From: Mycolicibacterium litorale | GTDB lineage: Bacteria; Actinomycetota; Actinomycetes; Mycobacteriales; Mycobacteriaceae | Length of the DNA stretch: 64,000 nucleotides | Assembly: GCF_014218295.1 (NCBI RefSeq) | Contig: NZ_AP023287.1 | Coordinates: 372,001-436,000, forward strand | Direction: 5' to 3' | Part shown: piece by piece, positions 9,125 through 64,000 of the stretch | Layout: each line of letters begins with the position of its first letter | Position numbering within the stretch: position 1 is the first letter of the stretch | The notes under the pieces: generated by a model | Seen by the model: the letters and a program-made list of their open reading frames with translations, nothing else | What the model was told of the DNA's origin: nothing | The model's database searches: none | Translations under genes and position numbers: made by a program

Positions 9125-10543
9125 TCATGCGGGCAGCTGCAGGGATTTGGTCTGCAGGAACTCCTCGAAGCCGGCGCGACCGAGCTCGCGGCCGACACCG
9201 GATTTCTTGTACCCGCCGAAGGGCGCGACAGGGTTGTACGTGCCGCCGTTGAGGTCCAGCTGACCGGTCTGCACCCGGCGCGCGAAGGCGATCGCGCGGT
9301 CGGTGTCCTCGGCCCACACCGCTCCGGACAGCCCATAGGGGGTGCCGTTGGCGATGCGCACCGCGTCGTCCTCGTCGCGGAACGGGATCACCGCGAGTAC
9401 CGGCCCGAAGACCTCTTCCTGCCCCAGCTCGGAGTCCGGGTCGACGTCGGCGAAGACGGTGGGCGCCACGTAGTAGCCGACGTCGCGGATCTTCTCGGCC
9501 CCGCCGGTGACCAGCCGTGCGCCGTCGCGCTCCGCGCGCTCGATGAACCCGCGCACCGTGGCGCACTGCGCCGCCGACGCTGACGGCCCGATCCGCGTGG
9601 CAGGGTCGAACGGATCGCCGACGGTGTACTTCGCGGCGGCCGCGGCGACCAGGTCGAGCGCCTCGGCGTAGCGGTTCTGCGGCACCAGCATCCGCGTCCA
9701 CGCCATACAGGTCTGGCCGCCGTTGAGGAATGCGTTGCCCACGCCGACCTTCACCGCGGTCGAAAGGTCCGCGCCGTCGAGGATGACGTTGGCCGATTTG
9801 CCGCCCAGCTCGAGCGCCACCTTCTTCACCGATCGAGCGGCGAGTTCGGCGACGCGTCGGCCGACGCCGGTCGAACCCGTGAACGAGACCAGGTCGACAT
9901 CGGGGTGCTCGGCGATCCGTTCACCCACCACGCGGCCGCTGCCGGAGACGAGGTTGACCACGCCGGGCGGCAGCCCGGCCTCCTCGACAGCCTCGACGAA
10001 CTCGAACACCGACAGCGGCGCCTCGTTGCTCGGTTTCAGCACGACGGTGCAGCCCGCCGCGATCGCCGGCAGCACCTTGGCCACCACCTGGTACAGCGGG
10101 TAGTTCCAGGGCGTGATGGCGCCGACGACCCCGTAGGGCTCGCGCACGATCAACGAGTTGCCCACGCGCTCTTCGAAATCGAAGGTGTCGAGCACATCGG
10201 CGAACCCCCGCGCCACCGCCAGCGGCACCTTGGTCTGCACCCCCTGGGCGATCCGCACCGGAGCGCCCATCTCGCGGGTGATCGTCTCGGCGATGTCCGG
10301 CAGGCGCTTCTCCATGGCGGTGATCACGCGGTGCAGGCGGTCGCGCCGCTCGGCCACGGTGATCAGCGGGTCGAAGGCGCGGCGGGCGGCGGCCACCGCG
10401 GCGTCGACGTCGGCCGCATCGCCGTTCGGGACGGAGCCGATGACCTGCTCGGTCGCCGGGTCGACGACCTCGATCGCGCCGTCCTCGGCCGGTGTCACCC
10501 ACCGGCCGTCGATGAACAGGGTCTTGCGGGTGTAGTCGTGCAT
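9125..10543 (-). CDS. Aldehyde dehydrogenase (NAD(P)+-dependent)
   Basis: A 472-residue aldehyde dehydrogenase oxidising an aldehyde to the carboxylic acid. The general base Glu245 lies in LELGGKS, the catalytic Cys279 in GGQTCMA, and the Rossmann motif FTGSTGVG at 221-228. It is of normal length. It lies 14 bp downstream of the zinc alcohol dehydrogenase gene, so the pair could take an alcohol to the acid, with the acyl-CoA ligase upstream activating the product. Confidence 0.92.
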   Translation of the reverse strand: MHDYTRKTLFIDGRWVTPAEDGAIEVVDPATEQVIGSVPNGDAADVDAAVAAARRAFDPLITVAERRDRLHRVITAMEKRLPDIAETITREMGAPVRIAQGVQTKVPLAVARGFADVLDTFDFEERVGNSLIVREPYGVVGAITPWNYPLYQVVAKVLPAIAAGCTVVLKPSNEAPLSVFEFVEAVEEAGLPPGVVNLVSGSGRVVGERIAEHPDVDLVSFTGSTGVGRRVAELAARSVKKVALELGGKSANVILDGADLSTAVKVGVGNAFLNGGQTCMAWTRMLVPQNRYAEALDLVAAAAAKYTVGDPFDPATRIGPSASAAQCATVRGFIERAERDGARLVTGGAEKIRDVGYYVAPTVFADVDPDSELGQEEVFGPVLAVIPFRDEDDAVRIANGTPYGLSGAVWAEDTDRAIAFARRVQTGQLDLNGGTYNPVAPFGGYKKSGVGRELGRAGFEEFLQTKSLQLPA

Positions 10544-10557
10544 GGGTTCCTTCCCGG

Positions 10558-11664
10558 TCAGGGGATGATGCTCGCGCGGACGTCGCGCTTACCGTCGGCG
10601 GCGGCGAACGCCTCGTTGATGTGGTCGAGGGGGTAGTGCGCCGCGGCGAGCCGGTCGAGCGGCAGATGGTCCTGGTGCTGCTCGAGGAAGGTCAGCGCCC
10701 GGGACAGGACGGCCGGGTCGTACAGCGACACCCCGACCATCGCCTTGTTACCGAAGACGAAGCGTGACGGGTCGAAGTCGAACGTCTTGCCGATGTTGAT
10801 GTTGCCGATCTCGACGTAGCGGCCGAACTGGCCGAGCAGTTTGAGCCCTTCGTCGATGGCCGAGGGATGGCCGACGACTTCGACCACCACGTCGGCGCCG
10901 TGGCCTCCGGTCAGCTCGCGCACGAGCTTCGCGCGGTCCTTGACGGTGGTCGCCGCGGTGATGTCGACGACGGCGTCGGCGCCGAAGGCCGTCGCCAGTT
11001 CCAGGCGCTCCGGCACCCCGTCGATCGCGATGACCGTGGCCGCGCCGCGTGCCTTGGCGACGGCCACCGCGTACAGGCCCAGCGCGCCCGCACCCTGGAC
11101 CACCACCACCTCGCCCAGCTGCTGATCGACCCGCTCGAGCCCGTACATCACCTGCGACAGTGCGCAGTTCGCACCCGAGGCGATCTCGTCGGAGACGGCG
11201 TCGGGCACCGTGTACACCACCGCGCCGGCAGGCAGCAGGTAGTAGTCGCCGTAGCCGCCGACGAAGTAGGGGGGTTCGTCGGCGCGGCCCAGCATCGCCA
11301 TCGCCAGGTTCAGGCAGGCGTTGCGCCGGCCCAGCAGACAGTTGCGGCAGCGGTGGCAGGAGAAGAAGTAGGGGAACACCACGCGGGTGCCTTCGGCCAG
11401 CGGCGAACCGTTGGAGTCGGCGGTGACGCCATCCCCGAGTGCCGCGACGGCGCCGACCATCTCGTGACCGAGGACGGTGGGCAGTTGCCCACCGAGCCCG
11501 CGGGTGGCGAAGGTGCCGTGCCAGGCGTGCAGATCGGATCCGCAGATGTTGGTCCTGGTCACTTTGACGAGGATCTCGCCGGGGCCCACGTCGCCCAGTT
11601 CGACGGTCTCGATCTCGAACGGTTGTCCGGGCGCGTCGAACCGCGCGATCCGTCCCTTGAACAC
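10558..11664 (-). CDS. Zinc-containing alcohol dehydrogenase (MDR family)
   Basis: A 368-residue medium-chain dehydrogenase. The catalytic zinc site is indicated by NICGSDLHAWHG and GHEMVG; the structural zinc by four cysteines in CHRCRNCLLGRRNAC; the cofactor fold by GAGALGLYAV. GTG 11664 is preferred because AAAGGA precedes it by about 10 nt and the ligase stop lies 14 bp upstream. An open frame extends further upstream but runs antisense-like through the ligase gene. Likely role: oxidation of an alcohol intermediate, with the next gene oxidising the aldehyde. Confidence 0.9.
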   Translation of the reverse strand: MFKGRIARFDAPGQPFEIETVELGDVGPGEILVKVTRTNICGSDLHAWHGTFATRGLGGQLPTVLGHEMVGAVAALGDGVTADSNGSPLAEGTRVVFPYFFSCHRCRNCLLGRRNACLNLAMAMLGRADEPPYFVGGYGDYYLLPAGAVVYTVPDAVSDEIASGANCALSQVMYGLERVDQQLGEVVVVQGAGALGLYAVAVAKARGAATVIAIDGVPERLELATAFGADAVVDITAATTVKDRAKLVRELTGGHGADVVVEVVGHPSAIDEGLKLLGQFGRYVEIGNINIGKTFDFDPSRFVFGNKAMVGVSLYDPAVLSRALTFLEQHQDHLPLDRLAAAHYPLDHINEAFAAADGKRDVRASIIP

Positions 11665-49874: not shown

Positions 49875-51365
49875 CTACTGGTTCTGCGGGAACCCGAGGT
49901 TGATGCCGCCGTGGCTCGGGTCGAGCCAGCGCTGCGTGATGGCCTTGCCGCGGGTGAAGAAGTGCACGCCCTCGGTGCCGTGCGCGTGGCTGTCGCCGAA
50001 CAGCGAGTTCTTCCAGCCGCCGAAGCTGTAGTACGCCATCGGTACCGGGATGGGCACGTTGATGCCCACCATGCCGACCTCGACCTCGTTCTGGAACCGC
50101 CGGGCGGCGCCGCCGTCGTTGGTGAAGATCGCGGTGCCGTTGCCGTACGGGTTGGCGTTGATCAGTTCGAGCGCCTGGTCGTAGGTGTCGACGCGCACGA
50201 CCGACAGCACGGGTCCGAAGATCTCGTCGGTGTAGACGCTCATCTCGGGGGTGACGTTGTCGATCAGGGTCGGGCCCAACCAGAACCCGTCCGCTCCGCC
50301 GTCGGCGGTGACGTTGCGGCCGTCGACGACGATCTTGGCGCCGTCGGCCTCGCCGGCGTCGATGTAGGAGGCCACCTTGTCGCGGTGGGCCTTGGTGACC
50401 AGCGGACCCATGTCGGAGTCCTTGGTGCCGTCACCGGTCTTGAGCGCCGCGGCGCGTTCGGCGATCTTGGCGACGAGGTCGTCGGCGATCGGGCCGACCG
50501 CGACGGCCGCGCTGATCGCCATGCAGCGTTCGCCGGCGGAGCCGAACCCGGCGTTGACCATGGCGTCGGCGGCCAGGTCGAGGTCGGCGTCGGGCAGGAT
50601 GACCGCGTGGTTCTTGGCGCCGCCGAGGGCCTGGACCCGCTTACCGGCGGCGGTGCCGGTGGCGTAGACGTACTGGGCGATCGGGGTGGACCCGACGAAT
50701 GACACCGACTTGACCTTCGGGTTGGTCAGCAGTTCGTCGACGGCGGTCTTGTCGCCCTGGAGGACGTTGAACACCCCGGGCGGCAGGCCTGCCTCGGCCC
50801 ACAGGCGGGCCAGCCACAGCGACGCCGACGGATCCTTCTCCGACGGCTTGATCACGACGGTGTTGCCGGTGGCGATCGCGATGGGGAAGAACCACATCGG
50901 CACCATGGCGGGGAAGTTGAAGGGGCTGATGATGCCGACGACGCCGAGCGGCTGGCGGATCGAGTAGACGTCGACGTTGGTCGAGGCGTTCTCGGTGAAG
51001 CCGCCCTTGAGCAGATGCGGGATACCGCAGGCGAATTCGACGACCTCCTGGCCGCGGCTGACCTCGCCGAGGGCGTCGGAGAGCACCTTGCCGTGCTCGC
51101 TGGTGATGATCGCGGCGAGTTCGTGCTTGCGCGCGTTGAGCAGTTCGCGGAAGTTGAACAGGATCGAGGTCCGCTTGGCCAGCGAGGTGTCCCGCCACGC
51201 CGGGAAGGCCGCTGCGGCGGCTTCGATGACCGTGCGGGCGTCCTCGACGCTCGCCAGGGCCACCTGACCGGTGACCTCGCCGGTCGCCGGATTGGTCACG
51301 GGAGCGGTGGCCGAGGAGCCGCCCGCGAAGATGTCGTTGTTGCACCAGTGCTGTACGTTCGCCAT
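49875..51365 (-). CDS. mmsA: CoA-acylating methylmalonate-semialdehyde dehydrogenase
   Basis: A 496-residue aldehyde dehydrogenase of the MMSDH group, which converts methylmalonate semialdehyde or malonate semialdehyde with CoA and NAD+ to propionyl- or acetyl-CoA. The catalytic Cys281 is in GERCMA and the segment QALGGAKNHAVILPDAD replaces the ELGGK glutamate of other aldehyde dehydrogenases, which is the signature of this CoA-dependent group. It is upstream of an omega-aminotransferase and divergent from a PucR regulator; together they fit valine, beta-alanine or pyrimidine breakdown. Confidence 0.93.
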   Translation of the reverse strand: MANVQHWCNNDIFAGGSSATAPVTNPATGEVTGQVALASVEDARTVIEAAAAAFPAWRDTSLAKRTSILFNFRELLNARKHELAAIITSEHGKVLSDALGEVSRGQEVVEFACGIPHLLKGGFTENASTNVDVYSIRQPLGVVGIISPFNFPAMVPMWFFPIAIATGNTVVIKPSEKDPSASLWLARLWAEAGLPPGVFNVLQGDKTAVDELLTNPKVKSVSFVGSTPIAQYVYATGTAAGKRVQALGGAKNHAVILPDADLDLAADAMVNAGFGSAGERCMAISAAVAVGPIADDLVAKIAERAAALKTGDGTKDSDMGPLVTKAHRDKVASYIDAGEADGAKIVVDGRNVTADGGADGFWLGPTLIDNVTPEMSVYTDEIFGPVLSVVRVDTYDQALELINANPYGNGTAIFTNDGGAARRFQNEVEVGMVGINVPIPVPMAYYSFGGWKNSLFGDSHAHGTEGVHFFTRGKAITQRWLDPSHGGINLGFPQNQ

Positions 51366-51434
51366 GCCCCGAAGTCTGCGCTGCCCCGGCGCGTTCCGTA
51401 GGCCGCACTATGTCACCGATTTCCGGCTCGGCGC

Positions 51435-51440
51435 TACATT
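51435..51440 (+). promoter_or_regulatory. -10 box TACATT for leaderless pucR-type transcript
   Basis: TACATT ends 6 nt before ATG 51447, and no purine-rich ribosome binding site precedes the ATG. This spacing places the transcription start at the first base of the start codon. Confidence 0.5.
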
Positions 51441-51446
51441 GTGTAA

Positions 51447-53063
51447 ATGGCCATGACCGTTGCGGACGTCATCGGGCTTCCGGTCGTCGCCGCCGGTGCC
51501 CCGCAGGTGCTGAGCGCATGCCGCTGGCAGGACCCGATCCGCTGGGTGCACGTCGGCGACGTCGCGGATCTGTCCGCGCTGCTGCAGGGCGGTGAGCTGG
51601 TGCTGACCACCGGGGCCGGGTTGCGCAGCGACCCGCAGCGCTATCTGCAGGGACTGGCCGACGCGGGCGCCGTCGGCGCCGTCGTGGAACTCGGAACCGC
51701 GATGGCGGAAGTGCCCGCGGCGGTCGCCGAACAGGCCAGCCGGCTGGGGCTCGCCCTGGTCGCACTGCACCGACAGATCAAATTCGTCGACGTCACCGAG
51801 GCGGTGCACCGGCGCATCGTCGCCGCGCAGTACGACGAGGTGGCGTTCGACCGGCGCGTGCACGAGACGTTCACCGAACTGAGCATGAAACGCGCGTCGG
51901 CGGCCGGGATCGTCGACGCCGCGGCCCGCATCCTCGACGAGCCGGTCGTTCTCGAGGACCTCGCCCACCAGGCGCTCGCCGTCGCACCCGGAGGAGACGC
52001 GGCCGCCACCCTGCTGCAGGACTGGGAGCGGCGCTCGCGGCTGACCTCGGCCGACGGGGAATGGGCGGTCACCTCGGTCGGTCCGCGCGGCGAGGAATGG
52101 GGGCGCCTGATCGTCCCCGCGGCACCGGCCGACCGGGCGCGGGCGACGATGGTCCTCGAACGCGCGGCCGCCGCGCTGGCGCTGCACCGGATGATCGAGC
52201 GCAACCGCAGCGGGCTGCACCAGCAGGCCCAGAGCGGGCTGATCGACGACGTGCTGCAGGGCCGCATCGCCGACGAGCGGGAGGCCGCGGCGCGCGCGCA
52301 CGCCCTCGGGTTGCGCAAGGCCACCCGCTACCTGCCGGTGGTCGTGCGCGTCGACCGCGGCACCACCGTGGTGGATCCCGTTGTCGCGCAACAACGAAAC
52401 GTTGCCCTGCTGGACGCGGTCGCGCACACCGTCAACGCGTCGGGCCACACCGCGCTGTGCTCGATCCGCCGCGACGGGGAGATCGGCGCGCTGCTGGCGC
52501 TCAACCCGGCCCGCGGCGGCTGGGACCGGGCTCTCGGTGCACTGGGGGAACGCATCCACGCCGACCTGCGCCGGCTCGACGGCAACACCCGCTCGGTGTG
52601 CGCGGTCGGGGACCCGGCCGCCGAGATCGTCGAGGCGATCCACGGGTTGAGCGAGGCCGCCCACGTCGGCGAGGTGGCCATCGCGATGCACGGCAACACC
52701 CAGCCGGTCTACCGTGCCTCCGACGTGCGGCTGCGGGGTCTGATCGCGTTGCTGCGCGACGATCCGCGGGTGCAGCAGTTCGCCGAGACCGAACTGCGGG
52801 CGCTGCTGGTCGACGACGACAACCGCGCGCTGTCCAATCTGGAGGTCCTGCGTCAGTACCTGCAGGTGGCCGGTAACAAGGCCGCCCTTGCGCAGCGGCT
52901 GCACATCAGCCGTCCCGCGCTCTACAAGAGGTTGGCCGCGATCGGCCGGACACTCGGGGTCGACCTCGACGACGCGGAGTCCATGACGTCATTGCACGTG
53001 GCGATGCTGATCCTCGACGCGCAGCGGCGTGCCGCCTCCGAGGTGCTCACCCGCGGCGGCTGA
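51447..53063 (+). CDS. PucR family transcriptional regulator
   Basis: A 538-residue regulator with the PucR N-terminal domain (MTVADVIGLPVV ... RWVHVGDVADLSALLQGGELVLTTG), a central helical/GGDEF-like region and the C-terminal PucR helix-turn-helix (LRQYLQVAGNKAALAQRLHISRPALYKRLAAIGRTLGVDLDD). Family members sense amino- or purine-derived metabolites. It is divergent from mmsA (81-bp gap) and is the likely activator of the mmsA-aminotransferase operon. The start is set by a leaderless promoter. Confidence 0.9.
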   Translation: MAMTVADVIGLPVVAAGAPQVLSACRWQDPIRWVHVGDVADLSALLQGGELVLTTGAGLRSDPQRYLQGLADAGAVGAVVELGTAMAEVPAAVAEQASRLGLALVALHRQIKFVDVTEAVHRRIVAAQYDEVAFDRRVHETFTELSMKRASAAGIVDAAARILDEPVVLEDLAHQALAVAPGGDAAATLLQDWERRSRLTSADGEWAVTSVGPRGEEWGRLIVPAAPADRARATMVLERAAAALALHRMIERNRSGLHQQAQSGLIDDVLQGRIADEREAAARAHALGLRKATRYLPVVVRVDRGTTVVDPVVAQQRNVALLDAVAHTVNASGHTALCSIRRDGEIGALLALNPARGGWDRALGALGERIHADLRRLDGNTRSVCAVGDPAAEIVEAIHGLSEAAHVGEVAIAMHGNTQPVYRASDVRLRGLIALLRDDPRVQQFAETELRALLVDDDNRALSNLEVLRQYLQVAGNKAALAQRLHISRPALYKRLAAIGRTLGVDLDDAESMTSLHVAMLILDAQRRAASEVLTRGG

Positions 53064-53123
53064 CCGCCGGCGAGGTTGGTCACGGACCTGGTTTCACTTT
53101 CGTCTTGTCTGGGCAGCCTGCAT

Positions 53124-53267: not shown

Positions 53268-56200
53268 GTGGGCGTTGAGGAAGCTGACGCGGCTTCGTTG
53301 ACGTCGTCGGCGCGCGCGCTGTTCGGTGCCGATCTCGAGGTGGGCAGGCATCTGGCGGAGGTCGACTGGGCCGCGACGGCGCTCGGTCCCACCGCCACCT
53401 GGCCGCAGAGTCTGCGCACCGCGGTCAGCATCCTGCTGTCGTCACGCTTCCCGATGTGGATGGCGTGGGGTCCGGACCTGACCTTCTTCTGCAACGACGC
53501 ATACCGCCGCGACACGCTGGGCCGAAAGTACCCGTGGGCGCTGGGCCGCCCGGCGAGCGAGGTGTGGGCGGAGATCTGGCCCGACATCGGGCCGCGGATC
53601 GAGTCGGTGCTCACCACCGGCCATGCCACCTGGGATGCGGCGCTGCTGCTGTTCCTCGAACGGTCGGGCTACTCCGAGGAGACCTACCACACGTTCTCGT
53701 ACAGTCCGCTGCGCGACGACAGCGGTGACGTCGTCGGCATGCTGTGCGTGGTCAGCGAGGACACCGAACGCGTCATCGCCGAGCGGCGGATGGCGACGCT
53801 GCGTGACCTCGGATCGGATCCGAGCGTCGTGCGCACCGAGCGGCAGATGCTGGACTTCTCGGCCGCCCAGCTCGGCCGCAACCCGTACGACCTGCCGTTC
53901 ACCCTGACCTACTTGTTCGGTGACGACGGTGACGCGCGGCTCGCCGCCACCAGCGGGATCGAGCCGGGACATCCGGCTGCGCCCGAATCCCTGCCGTCCG
54001 AAGGCATGTCGGTGTGGCCGGTGGAGCTGCCGGCGCAGGGTGAGGCGGTGCTGCTGGACATCGACGGTGAGTCGCTGCGGCTGCCGAGCGGGGTGTGGCC
54101 CGAACCGCCCGCGCAGGCACTGGTCGTACCGTTGATGCAGCAGGGCGCCGACCCGGTCGGGTTCCTGGTCGCCGGGTTGAACTCCCACCGGCGGCTGGAC
54201 GCCGGCTACCGCGGATTCGTGGAGCTGGTCGCCGGGCACGTCGCCGCGGGGATCGGCAGCGCGCGCAGCTACCGGGCGCAGCAGCGCAGGGCCGAGGAAC
54301 TCGCCGAACTCGACCTGGCCAAGACGACGTTCTTCTCCAACATCAGCCACGAGTTCCGCACGCCGCTGACCCTGATCCTGGGGCCGCTCGCCGAACTGCG
54401 GAACCGGACCACCGGCCTCGACGAGCAGGCGCGCGAAGAGCTGGAGTTGGTGCAGCGCAACGGATTACGGCTCGCCAAACTGGTCAACACGCTGCTGGAC
54501 TTCTCCCGCATCCAGGCCGGCCGGATGCAGGCGCGGTTCGAACCCGTCGACCTGTCCGAGGTCACCGCCGAACTGGCCAGCGTGTTCCGCTCGGCCGTGG
54601 AGCGTGCGGGTCTCCACTTCACCGTCGACTGCCCGCCGCTGGCCGAACCGGTGTACGTCGACCGTGACATGTGGGAGAAGGTGATCCTCAACCTGCTCTC
54701 GAATGCGCTGAAGTTCACCCTCGAGGGCGCCGTCACCGTCCGGGTCGCCGACGACGGCGACGGCGCGGTGGTCACGGTCGCCGACACCGGCGTCGGAATC
54801 GCCGCCGCCGACCTGCCACGGCTGTTCGAGCGGTTCCACCGGATCGAGACCACCTACGCCAGATCGACCGAGGGCAGCGGGATCGGGCTCGCGCTCGTCA
54901 AGGAGCTGGTCGGCCTGCACGGCGGGACGATCAGCGCCGAGAGCGAGGAAGGCCGAGGGACCGCATTCACCATCCGAATGCCCTACGGCCCAGCGCATCT
55001 GCCCGCCGACGACGTCGTGGCGCCGCGGCGGGTCTCCGCGGTCTCCGACATCGCCGACCCCTACGTTCAGGAGGCGCTGCGCTGGCTGCCCACCGAACCC
55101 GACAGCGAACAGACCGACGGCAACACCGGTGTCTCCGGGGCCGTCGCGGCGCCCGCGGACAGCGGGGCGCGGGTGCTCATCGCCGACGACAACGCCGACA
55201 TGCGCGACTATCTCACCGGACTTCTGCGCGGCGCCGGATATCAGGTGACCGCGGTGACCGACGGTCAGCAGGCGCTCGAATCGGTCCGTGCCGAACTGCC
55301 CGACCTGGTCGTCAGTGACGTCATGATGCCCCGGCTCGACGGTCTGGGCCTGGTGGCCGCACTGCGCACCGACCCCCGCACCGCGGCACTGCCGGTGCTG
55401 CTGCTGTCGGCGCGGGCAGGGCAGGAGGCCTCCATCGAGGGACTGCAGGCCGGTGCCGACGACTACCTCGTGAAACCCTTTGCCGCAGCGGAGTTCCTGG
55501 CTCGGGTGCGGGCGAACGTGGCGCTGGCGCGGCTGCGCAACCACCACAGCCGCTGGCGTGCCGCGCTGATCGACTCCCTACAGGAGGCGTTCTTCGTCTG
55601 CGACGAAGACGGCGCGATCGTCGAGATCAACACCGCCTTCACCGACATCCTCGGCTACGGTCCCGAGGGCCTGCCCTACGCCCCCCGGCAACCGTGGTGG
55701 CCCGACCCCGAGACCGATCCGGACGGCTACCGGCAGACCAGTCAGGCCTTCACCGGGGTGCTCAACCAGACCCACGGGGACTACACGTTCCCGGTCGTCC
55801 ACCGCGATGGGCACCGGGTCTGGGTGAGCGCGAGCTTCAACCCCGCCGAAGACCCCGACACCGGCCGCCGGGTCATGGTCGGCACCTTCCGCGACGTCAC
55901 CGCCGAGCACTACACGGTGCAGCGCGAATCGGCGCTCGCCGCACTCAACGCCCAACTCGCCGACGCCGACACGCTCGACGGGGCGCTGCGCGCCGCCGTC
56001 TCCGAGCTGTTGCGGCTGTGGCAGGCCCGCCGGGTACTCGCGGTCACCTTCCCCGCTCAGCAGGCGTCGGACGATGACGTAACCCCGGACGTCATCTGCG
56101 CGGGGGAACCCGTGCGTTGGGCCGAACTCCCGGCGCGTCACCGCACCGCGATCACCACGCTGCGCGACGCCGACCTGCTGACCACCGACACCGAGGAGTA

Positions 56201-57440
56201 CGGCACCGCGGGCGTCACGCTGCAGCATCCGCGCGGCGTGCTCGTCCTGTGGGTCGAGTTGCTGGAGCAACGCCCTTTCACCGCCGAGGACCACACGCTG
56301 CTCACGGTTCTGGCCAGCCGGCTCGGGCAGGGCCTGCACCGCGTCCACCAACTCGACCAGCAGCGCGAGACCGCACTGGCGTTGCAGCACGCGATCCTCG
56401 GCCCCGCCCGCCTGCCGCGCGGATTCACCGTCCGCTATCACCCGGCGACCCGGCCGCTGCAGGTCGGCGGGGACTGGTACGACGTGGTCGACCTCGACGG
56501 CGGCTGTATCGCGCTGATCGTCGGCGATTGCGTCGGCCACGATCTGGAGGCGGCCACCGTGATGGGGCAATTGCGCAGCGCGTGCCGTGCCCTGCTGCTC
56601 GACCACCCGAGTCCCGGGACCGCGCTGCTCGGCCTCGACCGGTTCGCCGCACGCCTGCCGGGTGCGCGCTGCACCACCGTGTGGTGTGGGGTGCTCGACC
56701 CGGACACCGGTGAGCTCGTCTACTCCAGCGCGGGTCATCCGCCGCCGATCCTCGTCGATGCCGACGGCGGCACCCGTTTGCTCGACGACGCCCGCGGTTT
56801 CGCCCTGGCGTTGCGGCCCGATCAGGAGCGGCCGGAGAGCCGGGTCACGCTGTCGGCCAGGGCCACTCTGCTGCTCTACACCGACGGGCTGGTCGAGCGT
56901 CGCCGCGCCTCGCTGGACACCGGTATCGGCCGCGCGGCGGACCTCGTCGCCGAAGGACGCTCTGACGCACTCGACATCGTCGCCGACGATCTGATGTCGC
57001 GCCTGGCGCCCGACGGCGGGTACCAGGACGACGTCGCGCTGCTGCTGTACCGCCAGCCCGCACCACTCGATCTCGTGTTCCCGGCGCGCAATGAGTACCT
57101 CGCGAGTTCCCGTGGCGCGCTTCGACGTTGGCTGACCCAGGCCGGCGTGGGTCCGGATCAGGCGATGAACGTGTTGATCGCGGCGGGGGAGGCGGTCGCG
57201 AACGCGATCGAGCACGGGCACCGGGACCGGCCCGACGGGTTCGTCACCCTCCGCGCGACCGCACTGGTCGACCGGCTCTACGTCTCGGTGCTCGACACCG
57301 GGTCGTGGAAACCGCCCCGCACCAAGGTCGACACCAGGCGGGGCCGCGGTGTGGCGCTGATGGAGGGCCTCATGGACGATGTGACGATCCAACCCGGTGA
57401 CGACGGCACCACGGTCCACCTCAACGCGAGGATCCTCTGA
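53268..57440 (+). CDS. Hybrid histidine kinase - receiver - PAS - PP2C phosphatase - RsbW-type kinase (1390 aa)
   Basis: A very large cytoplasmic signalling protein. Domains in order: PAS-like sensor (about 40-165), GAF-like region (190-330), HisKA with His361 in SHEFRTPL, HATPase (N479, DTGVG 507-511, GSGIGL 537-541), receiver with phospho-acceptor Asp684 and Lys736, second PAS (770-880), GAF-like (890-1025), PP2C/SpoIIE phosphatase (1040-1262; metal Asp1069, Asp1087, Asp1205, Asp1254/1255), and an RsbW-like anti-sigma HATPase (1270-1390; [11 protein letters not shown]). All catalytic residues look intact. The C-terminal half matches the design of M. tuberculosis Rv1364c (SigF partner switching); the N-terminal kinase-receiver is an added front end. 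A STAS gene follows with TGATG overlap. The phosphatase would dephosphorylate STAS proteins and the RsbW part would phosphorylate them or bind a sigma factor. Confidence 0.93.
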
Positions 57441-57772
57441 TGGCGACACCGCTCACCGTGAGTGCCGAAGAGCATGACGACGGCACACCGCTGCTGGTGG
57501 CGGCCGGAGAGATCGATCTGAGCAACATCGAGACCTTCAGCCGGGCGCTGACCACGGTGATCGCCTCGGCCGGCGACGCCGGAGGCCGGGTCACGGTGGA
57601 CCTCAGCGCGGTCGAATACCTCGACAGCGCGGCGATCGGCGCGCTGTCGGTGCACGCCGATCAGGCACCGGGCCTGCGGCTGCTCGCCAATCCGTATCTG
57701 ATGCCGGTGTTGCGGATCAGCGGTATCGACCAGCTCGCGACCGTGGAACCGGCCGAACCCGACCCCGGATAG
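57440..57772 (+). CDS. STAS-domain anti-sigma factor antagonist
   Basis: A 110-residue STAS protein (VAAGEIDLSNIETF ... VTVDLSAVEYLDSAAIGAL). Ser63 in YLDSAAIGA is the expected phosphorylation site (DSxG-type loop) targeted by RsbW kinases and PP2C phosphatases. Its ATG overlaps the stop of the hybrid kinase (TGATG), so the pair is translated together; in Rv1364c the equivalent STAS domain is fused to the same polypeptide. It should be the substrate of the kinase's C-terminal domains. Confidence 0.9.
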   Translation: MATPLTVSAEEHDDGTPLLVAAGEIDLSNIETFSRALTTVIASAGDAGGRVTVDLSAVEYLDSAAIGALSVHADQAPGLRLLANPYLMPVLRISGIDQLATVEPAEPDPG

Positions 57773-57855: not shown

Positions 57856-59028
57856 GTGATCGGATGGCTCGACAGGCTGCAACAGCGCAGCCGGGTCATG
57901 GGCTACCTCATCGCCGTCGTCTACAAGTACGTCGACGATCAGGGCGGCTATCTCGCGGCTCTGATCACCTACTACGCCTTCGTCTCGCTGTTCCCGCTGC
58001 TGCTCCTGCTGACCACCGCGCTCGGTGTACTGCTCGTCGGCCGGCCCGAACTGCAGCAGCAGGTCGTGGAGGCGACGGTCAACCAGTTCCCGCTGATCGG
58101 CGAACAGCTGGCCCAGCCCGAGAAGCTCAGCGGCGGGGCGGTCGCGGTCGTGGTCGGTATCGTCGGTGCGCTCTACGGCGGCTCGGGGGTCGGCCAGGCC
58201 ATCCAGAACGCGATGGACTCGGTGTGGGCGGTGCCGCGCAACAAGCGCCCGGACCCGATCCGGTCCCGCATCCGCAGCCTGATGCTGTTGCTGGTGTTGG
58301 GGACCGCGGCGGCCGCGGCGACGGTGCTGGCCGCGGTCGGCCGCGCCGTGGACGATTTCGGGGCGCTCGGCCGGACCGGGATCCTGGTGGCCACCATCGC
58401 CATCAACACCGGGATCTGTCTGGTGGCGTTCCGGATGACGACGAGCCGCGAGCTGACCTTCCGTCAGGTGCTGCCCGGCGCCCTCGCCGCGGCGGTGGTC
58501 TGGCAGTTCCTGCAGTGGTTCGGGGCCGGCTACGTGGCCCGCACGGTCAGTTCGGCGAGCGCCACCAACACCGTGTTCGCTCTGGTGCTCGGGCTGCTGG
58601 CGTTCCTGTACCTGGTGTCAGTGACCCTGGTGCTGTGCGCCGAGCTCAACGTCGTGCGGGTCGACCGGCTGTATCCGCGCGCGCTGCTGACCCCGTTCAC
58701 CGACCAGGTGACGCTCACCCCGGCCGACCGCCGCACCTACACCCGCAAAGCGAAAGCCGAGCGGGTCAAGGGTTTTCAACACGTCGCGGTGACGTTCGAG
58801 GGCGGACCCGGCGACCGGTCACACCCCGATGAGGCTCTCGATCCAGCCGCGCGCGAAGTACACGAGGAAGCCCGCGGCGACGACCCACAGCAGCGGGCTG
58901 ATCTCGCGGGCCTTCCCGGCGCCGGTGCGCACGACCACCCACGAGATGAAGCCGACACCGATCCCGTTGGCGATCGAGTAGGTGAAGGGCATGGCCGCCA
59001 CGGTGAGGACGACCGGCAACACCACTGA
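57856..59028 (+). CDS. YihY/BrkB-family membrane protein with an unusual C-terminal overlap
   Basis: A 390-residue frame. Residues 1-320 form a typical YihY/virulence factor BrkB protein with six hydrophobic segments and motifs GGYLAALITYYAFVSLFPLLLL, GALYGGSGVGQAIQNAMDSVW and the C-terminal LYPRALLTPFTDQVTLTPADRRTY. After residue 321 the frame crosses the stop of the convergent NCS2 permease and runs 210 bp antisense to it, giving a His/Asp/Arg-rich tail unlike the family. Either the natural stop was lost or the gene truly has an extended tail; a -1 or +2 shift would end at 58832. Start GTG 57856 follows GAAAGG. Confidence 0.8.
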   Translation: MIGWLDRLQQRSRVMGYLIAVVYKYVDDQGGYLAALITYYAFVSLFPLLLLLTTALGVLLVGRPELQQQVVEATVNQFPLIGEQLAQPEKLSGGAVAVVVGIVGALYGGSGVGQAIQNAMDSVWAVPRNKRPDPIRSRIRSLMLLLVLGTAAAAATVLAAVGRAVDDFGALGRTGILVATIAINTGICLVAFRMTTSRELTFRQVLPGALAAAVVWQFLQWFGAGYVARTVSSASATNTVFALVLGLLAFLYLVSVTLVLCAELNVVRVDRLYPRALLTPFTDQVTLTPADRRTYTRKAKAERVKGFQHVAVTFEGGPGDRSHPDEALDPAAREVHEEARGDDPQQRADLAGLPGAGAHDHPRDEADTDPVGDRVGEGHGRHGEDDRQHH

Positions 59029-60234
59029 GAACTCCGCCAGTTCGATGTGCCGCAACTGCGACACCATCATCGCGCCGACGATCACCAGCGCCGCAGCGGC
59101 CACCTCGGTCGGCACGATGGACGCCAGCGGGGACACGAACATGGCCGCCAGGAACAGCGCGCCGGTGACCAGGTTCGCCAGCCCCGTGCGCGCACCCTCC
59201 TCGATACCGGCACCGGATTCGATGAAGACCGTGTTCGACGACGCCGACGTCGCGCCGCCGACCGCGGCGCCCGCACCCTCGACGATCAGCGCCGAGCGCA
59301 GCCGCGGGAACGTGCCCTGCGCGTCGGCGAGGCCCGCTTCCCGCGACAGCCCGGTGAACGTGCCCATGGCGTCGAAGAAGTTCGCGAACACCAGGGTGAA
59401 GACCAGCATCACCGCCGCCAGGATCCCGATCCGCTCGAAACTGTCGACCAGGCTGAACTCACCGACCAGGGAGAGATCCGGCAGCGCGAACGGCGAACCC
59501 GACAGTTCCGGCACCGACAGGCTCCAGCCGCCGTCGACGTCCTGCGCCGACCCCAGGTCCCAGATCGCCTCGACGATGACCGCGACCACGGTGCCCACGA
59601 CCAGCCCCATCAGGATGCCGCCCCGCACGCGCCGGGCGACCAGCACACCGGTGATCAGCAGCGTGACGACGAAGATCAGCGTCGGGACGGTGCTGATCGA
59701 CCCGAGGCCACCGGCGCCGAGCCCGACCGGCGGCGACGCCAACCCGGTCGAGCTGACGAAGCCCGCGTCGACCAGCCCGATGAAAAGGATGAACAAGCCG
59801 ATACCCGCGGTGATCGCCAGCTTGAGCTGCATCGGCACGGCGTCGAACACCAGTCGGCGCAGACCGGTCACCGCCAGCAGCACGATGATCAGGCCGTTGA
59901 TCACCACCAGGCCCATCGCCTCCGGCCAGGTGACCTCGCCGACCACCGTGGTCGCCAGGAACGAGTTGATCCCCAGCCCGGCGGCGAACGAGAACGGCAG
60001 CCGGGCGATGAGGCCGAACAGGATCGTCATCACGCCCGCCGCGAGAGCGGTGGTGGCCGAGACCTGGGCGAACTGCAGCGTGTTGCCCTCGACGTCCTCG
60101 GCGCTCGACAGGATGATCGGGTTCAGCACGATGATGTAGGCCATCGCGATGAAGGTGACCAGGCCGCCGCGGACCTCCGCGCCGAGTGTGGACCCGCGCG
60201 CGGAGATCTCGAAGAAGCGATCGAGGCGATTCAT
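58819..60234 (-). CDS. NCS2 family purine permease (AzgA type)
   Basis: A 471-residue transporter with about 12-14 membrane spans. Features of AzgA-like guanine/hypoxanthine permeases are the N-terminal RFFEISARGSTLGAEVRGGLVTFIAMAYIIVLNP, and the later segments SRGSTL-like loop, GATSASSNTVFIESGAGIEEG and GIGVGFISW. It imports purine bases with protons. It is divergent from lysG, and its 3' end is overlapped by the tail of the YihY frame. Confidence 0.9.
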   Translation of the reverse strand: MNRLDRFFEISARGSTLGAEVRGGLVTFIAMAYIIVLNPIILSSAEDVEGNTLQFAQVSATTALAAGVMTILFGLIARLPFSFAAGLGINSFLATTVVGEVTWPEAMGLVVINGLIIVLLAVTGLRRLVFDAVPMQLKLAITAGIGLFILFIGLVDAGFVSSTGLASPPVGLGAGGLGSISTVPTLIFVVTLLITGVLVARRVRGGILMGLVVGTVVAVIVEAIWDLGSAQDVDGGWSLSVPELSGSPFALPDLSLVGEFSLVDSFERIGILAAVMLVFTLVFANFFDAMGTFTGLSREAGLADAQGTFPRLRSALIVEGAGAAVGGATSASSNTVFIESGAGIEEGARTGLANLVTGALFLAAMFVSPLASIVPTEVAAAALVIVGAMMVSQLRHIELAEFSVVLPVVLTVAAMPFTYSIANGIGVGFISWVVVRTGAGKAREISPLLWVVAAGFLVYFARGWIESLIGV

Positions 60235-60255
60235 GGGTCGAACCCTAAGGTGAAC

Positions 60256-60303
60256 CGCCGTCGACGGCGAGTTACCACGTCGGGGGCGCGGAATTCCTAC
60301 ATT
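60256..60303 (+). promoter_or_regulatory. Leaderless promoter of lysG and a 14-bp palindrome
   Basis: TACATT (60298-60303) ends 6 nt before GTG 60310, as in other leaderless mycobacterial genes. A perfect palindrome CGCCGTCGACGGCG lies at 60256-60269 in the 75-bp divergent gap to the permease gene and might be a LysR-type binding element or chance GC-rich symmetry. Confidence 0.4.
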
Positions 60304-60309
60304 GAGTCG

Positions 60310-61221
60310 GTGACCTCTGCCCACCCGCAGCCGCGGGATGCGACCCGCCTCGGTGCCGATCAGCTCGCCGCGCTCGCCGCGGTGGTCGAATTCGGCAGCT
60401 TCGACGTGGCGGCCGACCACCTCCACATCACACCCTCAGCGGTCAGCCAGCGCATCAAGGCGCTCGAACAGCGCGTCGGCCAGGTGCTGGTGGTTCGCGA
60501 AAAGCCCTGCCGTGCAACAGCTGCGGGCGTCCCGCTGCTGCGCTTGGCGGCGCAGACCGCACTGTTGGAGGCCGAGGCGCTCAGTGAGTTGGGCGGCCCG
60601 GGAACCGCGCATCGGCCGCGGATGGCGGTCGCGGTCAACGCCGACTCGATGTCGACGTGGTTCACCGGAGTGCTCGGCGACGTCGCCGACGTCCTGTTCG
60701 ACATCAGGATCGAGGACCAGGACCACTCCGCGCGGCTGCTGCGCGAAGGCGTGGTGATGGGTGCGGTCACCACCGAACGCAACCCGGTACCGGGCTGCCG
60801 GGTGCAACCGCTCGGGATGATGCGCTACCTGCCGGTGGCGACCGCGGCCTACGTCGAGCGCCATCTGTCCGCAGGCTTCACGGCGACGGCCGCGGAGCAG
60901 GCCCCGTCGCTGGCCTGGAATCGCGATGACGCACTGCAGGATCTCTTGATTCGCAAAGCTTTCCGCCGCGCGATCACCCGGCCGGTGCACTACGTGCCCA
61001 CCGCGGAGGGGTTCGGTGCGGCGGTGCGCGCGGGGCTCGGCTGGGGGATGTACCCGGAGCAGCTGGCCGCACGGGAGCTGGCCGACGGATCCTTCGTCCG
61101 CATCGCCGAAGTCAACCTCGACGTGCCGCTCTACTGGCAGTGCTGGAAACTCGACAGTCCGCTCGTGGCGCGCCTCACCCGGGCGGTCCGGTCCGCGGCG
61201 GACGCTCTGGCGCGCCGCTGA
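60310..61221 (+). CDS. lysG: LysG, LysR-type regulator (ArgP-like)
   Basis: A 303-residue LysR regulator. The winged helix HLHITPSAVSQRIKALEQRVGQVLVVREKPCRAT and the effector-domain segments VNADSMSTWF, IEDQDHSARLLREGV, AVTTERNPVPGCRV, SLAWNRDD, RKAFRRAITRP and LDVPLYWQCWKLDSP agree closely with what I remember of M. tuberculosis LysG (Rv1985c), which activates the lysine exporter gene lysE next to it. Here the divergent neighbour is a purine permease rather than lysE. The GTG start fits a leaderless promoter. Confidence 0.93.
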   Translation: MTSAHPQPRDATRLGADQLAALAAVVEFGSFDVAADHLHITPSAVSQRIKALEQRVGQVLVVREKPCRATAAGVPLLRLAAQTALLEAEALSELGGPGTAHRPRMAVAVNADSMSTWFTGVLGDVADVLFDIRIEDQDHSARLLREGVVMGAVTTERNPVPGCRVQPLGMMRYLPVATAAYVERHLSAGFTATAAEQAPSLAWNRDDALQDLLIRKAFRRAITRPVHYVPTAEGFGAAVRAGLGWGMYPEQLAARELADGSFVRIAEVNLDVPLYWQCWKLDSPLVARLTRAVRSAADALARR

Positions 61222-63956: not shown

Positions 63957-64000
63957 CCGGACGCGGCCGTCGTGGCGTTTACCGCCCGTGGCCCCGGGTA

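Follow-up and report, generated by a model that had tools for sequence, protein, structure and literature searches.

How is a two-component phosphorelay joined to serine-based partner switching when both are encoded in one protein? The question is raised by a fusion gene and its short STAS neighbor in a 64,000-nucleotide stretch of Mycolicibacterium litorale DNA (contig NZ_AP023287.1, positions 372,001 to 436,000 of the forward strand; here called the window, whose numbering we use for the two genes). The fusion gene is a single open reading frame (ORF) with a GTG start (53268-57440, + strand) and carries a histidine kinase, a receiver, a PP2C phosphatase, and an RsbW-type serine kinase. We think it probable that phosphotransfer from His361 to Asp684 alters the balance of this phosphatase and kinase on the STAS protein and so frees a SigF-family sigma factor. 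The two genes and their parts are as follows (E, expect value).

53268..57440, + strand: hybrid histidine kinase/PP2C/RsbW-type fusion protein, 1390 amino acids (ORF, Pfam, and database relatives)
53454..53759, + strand: N-terminal PAS-like sensor fold, residues ~63 to 164, limits approximate (strand/helix order in the AlphaFold model)
53838..54254, + strand: GAF domain (GAF_2), residues 191 to 329 (PF13185, E 1.3e-9)
54318..54521, + strand: HisKA dimerization/phosphoacceptor domain, residues 351 to 418 (PF00512, E 5.6e-18), with His361 at 54348-54350
54660..54986, + strand: HATPase_c catalytic domain, residues 465 to 573 (PF02518, E 1.8e-33)
55173..55511, + strand: receiver domain (Response_reg), residues 636 to 748 (PF00072, E 1.3e-27), with Asp684 at 55317-55319
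55572..55910, + strand: PAS domain (PAS_4), residues 769 to 881 (PF08448, E 2.3e-16)
55974..56261, + strand: GAF-like domain, residues ~903 to 998, missed by Pfam (secondary-structure order in the AlphaFold model)
56283..56396, + strand: long helix, residues 1006 to 1043 (38 residues), before the PP2C domain, candidate coiled-coil transmitter (AlphaFold model)
56424..57053, + strand: PP2C phosphatase of the SpoIIE/RsbU type, residues ~1053 to 1262 (PF07228, SpoIIE match 1077 to 1262, E 1.2e-44)
57078..57422, + strand: RsbW-type GHKL serine kinase (HATPase_c_2), residues 1271 to 1385 (PF13581, E 5.8e-31)
57440..57772, + strand: STAS (anti-sigma antagonist-like) gene, 110 amino acids (Pfam STAS_2 and STAS), with Ser63 at 57626-57628

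An earlier sequence-only reading had described one 1390-residue frame with sensor domains, histidine kinase, receiver, PAS, phosphatase, and RsbW-type kinase in that order. The ORFs and Pfam agree with it: all the domains it named scored above cut-off, and His361, Asp684, and STAS Ser63 lie in the translation where it had put them. The GAF domain before the kinase, the PAS-like and GAF-like folds, and the helix at 1006 to 1043 are additions to that description. Residues ~63 to 164 gave no Pfam match above cut-off when the fusion protein was searched, and we assign the PAS-like fold there and the GAF-like fold at 903 to 998 by reading predicted secondary structure. The AlphaFold models cover residues 19 to 620 (predicted local distance difference test score, 86; predicted template modeling score, 0.59) and 621 to 1389 (82 and 0.48), and with template modeling scores of this size the relative placement of domains in them is unreliable. 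No membrane segment was found in the fusion protein (best 19-residue Kyte-Doolittle mean, 1.31); the best explanation is that the protein is soluble and its sensors are cytosolic.

The single chain holds the HisKA histidine, the HATPase_c N box, and the receiver aspartate that characterize a hybrid histidine kinase. The SpoIIE domain scored 153 bits against a cut-off of 25 (PF07228) and has the acidic metal ligands of the SpoIIE/RsbU type. The RsbW-type domain combines the HATPase_c_2 match with an N box (E1308, N1312), the G1 Asp (D1343), and the G2 glycines (G1359 and G1361), and it can be aligned with Rv1364c, RsbW, and SpoIIAB. The best relative of the output half in the PDB, by sequence (E 2.3e-47) and by fold (E 2.2e-25), is the RsbU-RsbW part of Rv1364c (3ke6), and the receiver-then-PP2C arrangement gave a fold match to RssB. 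The interpretation of the locus as a histidine kinase fused to a partner-switching phosphatase and kinase, with a separate STAS protein and an Rv1364c-homologous output half, stands; its novelty does not, as shown below.

We kept 80 loci from titled records out of at least 594 confirmed stretches and used BLAST of the frames to sort them. The complete architecture defines group A (28 loci, with L032 and L034 truncated where their contigs end), which comes from Mycobacteriaceae, Streptomycetaceae, Micromonosporaceae, Streptosporangiaceae, and Pseudonocardiaceae. Group B (12 loci) has the kinase-receiver front in common and a divergent output half (33 to 38% identity), and in group C (13 loci, Mycobacteriaceae without exception) the similarity is confined to residues 892 to 1389, at 62 to 67% identity. 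The remaining 27 loci, for the most part kinase-receiver proteins from other phyla, were excluded from residue counts and family trees. Residue counts refer to group A and, at each position, to the sequences that cover it. His361, Glu362, and HATPase Asn479 were invariant in 27 of 27 sequences, as were Asp684, Ser714, and Lys736 of the receiver, whose Asp640 and Asp641 were invariant in 28 of 28. The phosphatase aspartates and the RsbW N box, both noted in the sequence-only reading, are indeed present and equally constant: D1069, D1072, D1087, D1206, D1254, and D1255, and likewise E1308, N1312, D1343, G1359, and G1361, did not vary in any of 27 sequences.

The STAS gene had been called coupled to the fusion gene through TGATG, and its ATG does share one A with the TGA stop. 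Its product matched Pfam STAS_2 (E 3.9e-8; 33.8 bits, cut-off 29.2) and STAS (E 2.5e-7; 30.8 bits, cut-off 22.6), and it scored 34.8 bits with NCBIfam TIGR00377 (ant_ant_sig), below the cut-off of 53.45, so we class it as a STAS-domain partner and not as a member of the ant_ant_sig superfamily. A STAS frame lies directly behind the fusion gene (within 700 bases) in 24 of 27 group A loci that leave space for one, and in 23 of these 24 its start overlaps the fusion stop by 1 or 4 bases; the frame of L026 looks broken. All 13 group C loci have a STAS frame behind the gene (overlap of 1 base in 12, abutting in 1), and none was found within 700 bases behind the gene in 11 group B loci. The serine is preceded by Asp (Tyr in L032) in all 37 STAS frames of groups A and C. 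These counts are evidence, new here, that the fusion gene and the STAS gene form a conserved overlapping two-gene unit.

Several other STAS genes were seen along the way. A different one, with a GSAGL-/GSAAL-type motif in place of Asp-Ser, stands just upstream of the kinase in L011, L013, L019, L024, and L030, and a further gene with this type of motif lies at 352-711 in L135. The idea that PAS-PP2C-RsbW relatives always fuse their STAS domain was ruled out by L136, where the frames show a separate STAS gene.

From these parts we propose a mechanism. Cytosolic PAS and GAF sensors would set the histidine kinase, leading to phosphorylation of His361, which would hand its phosphoryl group in cis to the fused receiver at Asp684. 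The state of this receiver, together with input from the PAS and GAF-like domains that follow it, would pass down the helix at 1006 to 1043 and alter the SpoIIE-type phosphatase, which would oppose the fused RsbW-type kinase on its presumed substrate, STAS Ser63. Unphosphorylated STAS protein would bind an anti-sigma factor, most simply the RsbW1-type partner whose gene precedes sigF at another place in the genome, and this capture would free the likely target, a SigF-family sigma factor. We count the domains and active-site residues, the coupling of the STAS gene, the homology to Rv1364c, and the presence of rsbW1-sigF in the genome (at 1384.8-1386.1 kb) in favor of this mechanism.

The only computational hint for transfer in cis, and a weak one, is covariation between HisKA and the receiver. 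Interface positions were taken from HK853/RR468 mutants that PDB titles mention and were carried over with offsets assumed to be ungapped; they covaried more than random sets did (p 0.012 against 2000 such sets), with 4 of 20 carried-over pairs reaching at least the 97th percentile. STAS distances, compared in a mirror-tree test with L026 and L032 omitted, correlated best with those of the PP2C domain (0.78, n=23; all parts, 0.51 to 0.78).

A number of points weigh against the proposal. The covariation test had ~12 effective sequences, and none of the carried-over pairs was among the 20 highest; the mirror-tree correlation is confounded by common descent, and we do not take it as proof. The receiver is ~300 residues from the PP2C domain, with two other domains between them. 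A separate receiver-PP2C protein encoded in the same genome (L006, at 2650 kb and ~2.2 Mb from the window) could be the target of the kinase. The fused receiver of Bacillus cereus RsbK is inhibitory (PMC4574943), so a fused receiver need not transmit. A directly following STAS gene was not found in 3 of the 27 group A loci: in L023 an inserted frame (10092-11470) parts it from the fusion gene and puts it at +1378, and in L024 none was seen behind the fusion gene. Finally, a search of the genome with sigF gave no match inside the window. The third of these loci, L013, seems to keep just the start and tail of a STAS gene behind 10131, which has the look of an internal deletion, and the inserted frame of L023 reads by eye, not by family search, as transposase-like (TnpB-like).

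Two of these points belong to another explanation, in which the fused receiver attenuates its own kinase as a phosphate sink or docking inhibitor, the real partner is a separate receiver-PP2C protein, and the PP2C/RsbW half is ruled solely by the PAS and GAF-like domains. RsbK is a precedent for it (PMC4574943), L006 would supply the partner, and group C shows that the output half has no need of a receiver: all 14 proteins scanned (group C and the C-type paralogue in the window's own genome) matched GAF twice and matched neither HisKA nor the receiver family. We nevertheless consider it unlikely, because kinase, receiver, and output half are kept in one chain across several families, group A is a single clade in a tree of the front half (support, 100), and a SpoIIE search of the genome gave no other receiver-PP2C match in the window.

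The last step of the proposed mechanism, release of a sigma factor, draws on genes elsewhere in the genome. Besides rsbW1-sigF there is a second SigF-family sigma gene at 2898.8 kb (L129 6764-7573, - strand), 61% identical to sigF, which has a STAS gene nearby and, ~2.6 kb away, a PAS-PP2C gene, and a pair at 5347 kb is named RsfB-RsbW2-like by resemblance. A C-type paralogue of the output half lies at ~310.5-314 kb (L001/L127), where two GAF domains form the front and a separate STAS gene accompanies it; its output half is 58 to 74% identical to that of the window protein by domain, and its STAS protein is 50% identical. The gene beside this paralogue reads as a small heat-shock protein (Hsp20). 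The sequence-only reading had spoken of a "complete" sigma-factor module, which overstates the locus: the window has no sigF match, and an RsbW-type kinase need not bind a sigma factor, as with RsbW2 of Mycolicibacterium smegmatis (PMC7693655).

RsbW2 also bears on the reading in which the RsbW-type domain is itself the anti-sigma factor, so that a single protein holds the whole switch and the STAS protein and sigma compete for it. Rv1364c is reported to bind SigF in vitro (PMC10950880, PMC7693655) and OsaC to bind sigma-B via its kinase domain (PMC10117811), and a sigF-like gene adjoins the orthologue in L017. RsbW2, however, phosphorylates RsfB yet does not bind SigF (PMC7693655), the domain in the window retains its catalytic residues as a kinase would, and a sigF-like match was present within the examined flanks of just 3 of 28 group A loci (L013, L017, and L054), one of them at 30% identity. 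We regard this reading as improbable. Such a match was seen at 1 of 12 group B loci; with a sigF-like gene beside so few loci of either group, there is no general rule of an adjoining sigma factor. The gene in L017 (4997-5755, - strand; 48% identical) is directly upstream of the fusion gene and points away from it.

STAS proteins can also have non-sigma roles. That the STAS output here reaches a non-sigma client, stressosome-like or an enzyme target, would suit a window devoid of a sigF-like gene, but the three solved relatives found for the STAS protein, RsfB among them, are all named anti-sigma factor antagonists (weak matches, E 1.6e-4 to 5.3e-3), and we think such a client very improbable. 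Release of a SigF-family sigma factor through an anti-sigma partner is the reading that we carry forward.

Trees of the two halves suggest how the fusion has changed. These were quick trees; the output-half tree (residues 892 to 1388) was built without L034 and L049 and the front-half tree without L032, all too short, and the former was flagged with a long-branch warning among the B rows. In the output-half tree, one clade contained the 14 C rows (Shimodaira-Hasegawa-like approximate likelihood ratio test support, 89) and grouped with 13 of the mycobacterial A rows (82); a second clade (100) was made up of the rows from Streptomyces, Micromonosporaceae, and Planomonospora, and the mycobacterial A row L025 and two Amycolatopsis rows were unresolved outside both. 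Most simply read, the trees place the full architecture first, with one mycobacterial lineage later swapping its front for GAF domains and keeping the output half and the STAS gene. Support for the joining branch is moderate, and the exchange may have run in the reverse order. In either order, the finding that is new here is a mycobacterial lineage in which two predicted GAF domains replace the kinase-receiver-PAS front before the same output half and STAS gene.

The frame is intact and its architecture widespread. Among the matches listed for the fusion protein, itself aside, all 119 relatives were at least 70% identical over 99 to 100% of the length, the closest being 90% identical over 99% and 89% over 100%; full-length relatives at 70 to 90% identity exclude a sequencing frameshift, the artifact that would have undone the single frame. 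When a Streptomyces copy was the query, all 120 matches listed had HisKA, HATPase_c, receiver, SpoIIE, and HATPase_c_2, and a few were without one GAF or PAS label. A full-length match was found by hand count in 59 of 148 genomes sampled from the genus (67 to 100% identity, own genome included), one of them with an in-frame stop and one starting at residue 77; there were additionally 4 partial matches and a divergent one at 45%. Matches to the output half only were found in 44 of 148 genomes, and 23 of 148 had both kinds. Full-length matches occurred in 6 of 151 genomes of the family sample (4 of the 6 from the same genus) and in 5 of 198 of the phylum sample (3 of the 5 from the same genus). 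These whole-genome searches scored 3 or 4 candidates per genome, and copy counts are lower bounds for that reason. One copy (G409:C1:230622-233978) seems broken: its match is split into three overlapping stretches, and one of these contains an in-frame stop.

The novelty claimed for the architecture thus has to be given up, as the same full-length form occurs in all five group A families and in two-fifths of the genus sample. A 2011 review by de Been et al. reportedly describes complex hybrid kinases in sigma-B modules and RsbK-type kinases that differ in their C-terminal domains, including actinobacterial ones. We recognized no paper on the mechanism of this architecture among the open-licence literature; given that scope and the relevance of that review, above all others, an earlier description is likely, and the architecture is common and has probably been noted before. 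What looked like a unique system is better called a member of a common, little-tested actinobacterial stress-signaling family. What is new is small but useful: the two-gene unit and the lineage-specific front ends in mycobacteria.

The unit does not extend to the other genes around it. The BrkB, PucR, and permease neighbors had no match in any of the 53 loci of groups A, B, and C at 1e-8 or at 1e-3, a search in which sigF served as a working positive control at 1e-3; as these neighbors are not common to the loci, the conserved unit is two genes. The neighbors at 49875-53063 and 58819-60426 read as dehydrogenase-like and permease-like, with a PucR-type regulator identified by Pfam, and have no visible tie to the signaling pair. 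Upstream of the fusion gene is one further candidate feature.

53091..53115, + strand: weak SigF-like promoter box, GTTT-N16-GGGCA, with a single mismatch to the consensus, a lead only

The pattern GTTT-N15-17-GGGYA has 2 matches over both strands of the window, this box being one of them, and the sole match to the strict GTTT-N15-17-GGGTA on either strand is at 63977. A box of the 53091 type was found upstream of none of the 27 group A loci with the start in view (L028 has a looser GNTT form), and we keep the promoter as a lead only. A strict SigF-type box was present upstream of 2 of 13 group C loci (L075 and L082).

Set against known systems, the fusion protein resembles Rv1364c (PAS-PP2C-RsbW-STAS), to which its tandem PP2C and RsbW domains are homologous in one stretch over residues 1040 to 1388; in both, a PAS domain precedes this pair and the partner is a STAS domain (PMC10950880). 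Published descriptions give Rv1364c neither a histidine kinase nor a receiver and have its STAS domain fused, whereas the STAS protein here comes from a separate overlapping gene. The logic of the front recalls M. smegmatis, where the histidine kinase RsfS governs the receiver-linked PP2C RsfR acting on the STAS anti-anti-sigma factor RsfB, with RsbW2 as its kinase (PMC10950880, PMC7693655). There, kinase and receiver-PP2C are two proteins, the sensor is a putative membrane one (CHASE3), and RsbW2 is a third protein (PMC10950880); the window protein is one chain that lacks a membrane segment and has PAS and GAF-like domains in addition.

RsbK-RsbY of B. cereus likewise pairs a hybrid histidine kinase with a receiver-PP2C that feeds an RsbV/RsbW switch (PMC4574943, PMC10950880), but RsbY is separate and the RsbK receiver inhibitory (PMC4574943), while the window fusion has its receiver and PP2C in one chain. 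RsbK is also methylated, by RsbM. RsfR~P is a less active phosphatase (PMC10950880, PMC7693655) and RsbY~P a more active one, opposite in sign (PMC10950880), and with precedents that differ the receiver in the fusion protein may act with either sign.

More tentatively, and as a possibility only, the fusion protein may be a one-protein converter from two-component signaling to serine partner switching, in which Asp684~P directly determines the balance between the opposed phosphatase and kinase acting on a single STAS messenger, with neither a histidine phosphotransfer protein nor a separate response regulator, and in which the output half and STAS protein are an exchangeable cartridge. It could then be a SigF input route in mycobacteria without RsbRST. 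A 2021 study of the mycobacterial stressosome concluded that species without RsbRST must have at least one unknown SigF route, and it reports finding no homologue of RsbY (PMC8115616). At the frequency seen in the genus, a fusion of receiver, PP2C, and RsbW that comes with a STAS protein of its own is a candidate for that route.

In Streptomyces, OsaC is also a multidomain PP2C-containing regulator of sigma-B (PMC10117811, PMC12143880). Its domains are told differently in the two sources, as a histidine kinase and receiver (a venezuelae hybrid) in PMC10117811 and as N-terminal GAF and PAS domains in PMC12143880, so OsaC may or may not have the same front as the window fusion. A likely relative is S. 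coelicolor SCO7327, which we compare by description and gene number: a hybrid kinase with a receiver, of unclear cascade (PMC9739842), called OsaD (PMC9739823), and two gene numbers from the STAS protein SCO7325, an RsbV involved in SigB activation (PMC8346170). Two Streptomyces loci, L015 and L026, have the kinase fusion followed by a short STAS gene and then a second, classical one, an order that fits SCO7327-7326-7325 by number; a second STAS gene behind the first was not seen in Streptomyces loci L021, L027, and L033, and the window has the first STAS gene only. The PP2C and RsbW domains of SCO7327 are presumed from other Streptomyces copies. A 2022 review calls the cascades of three S. 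coelicolor hybrid kinases, SCO7327 included, unclear and states that in principle histidine phosphotransfer proteins are absent there (PMC9739842). If SCO7327 has the architecture of the other Streptomyces copies, the output of that kinase would lie in the same chain.

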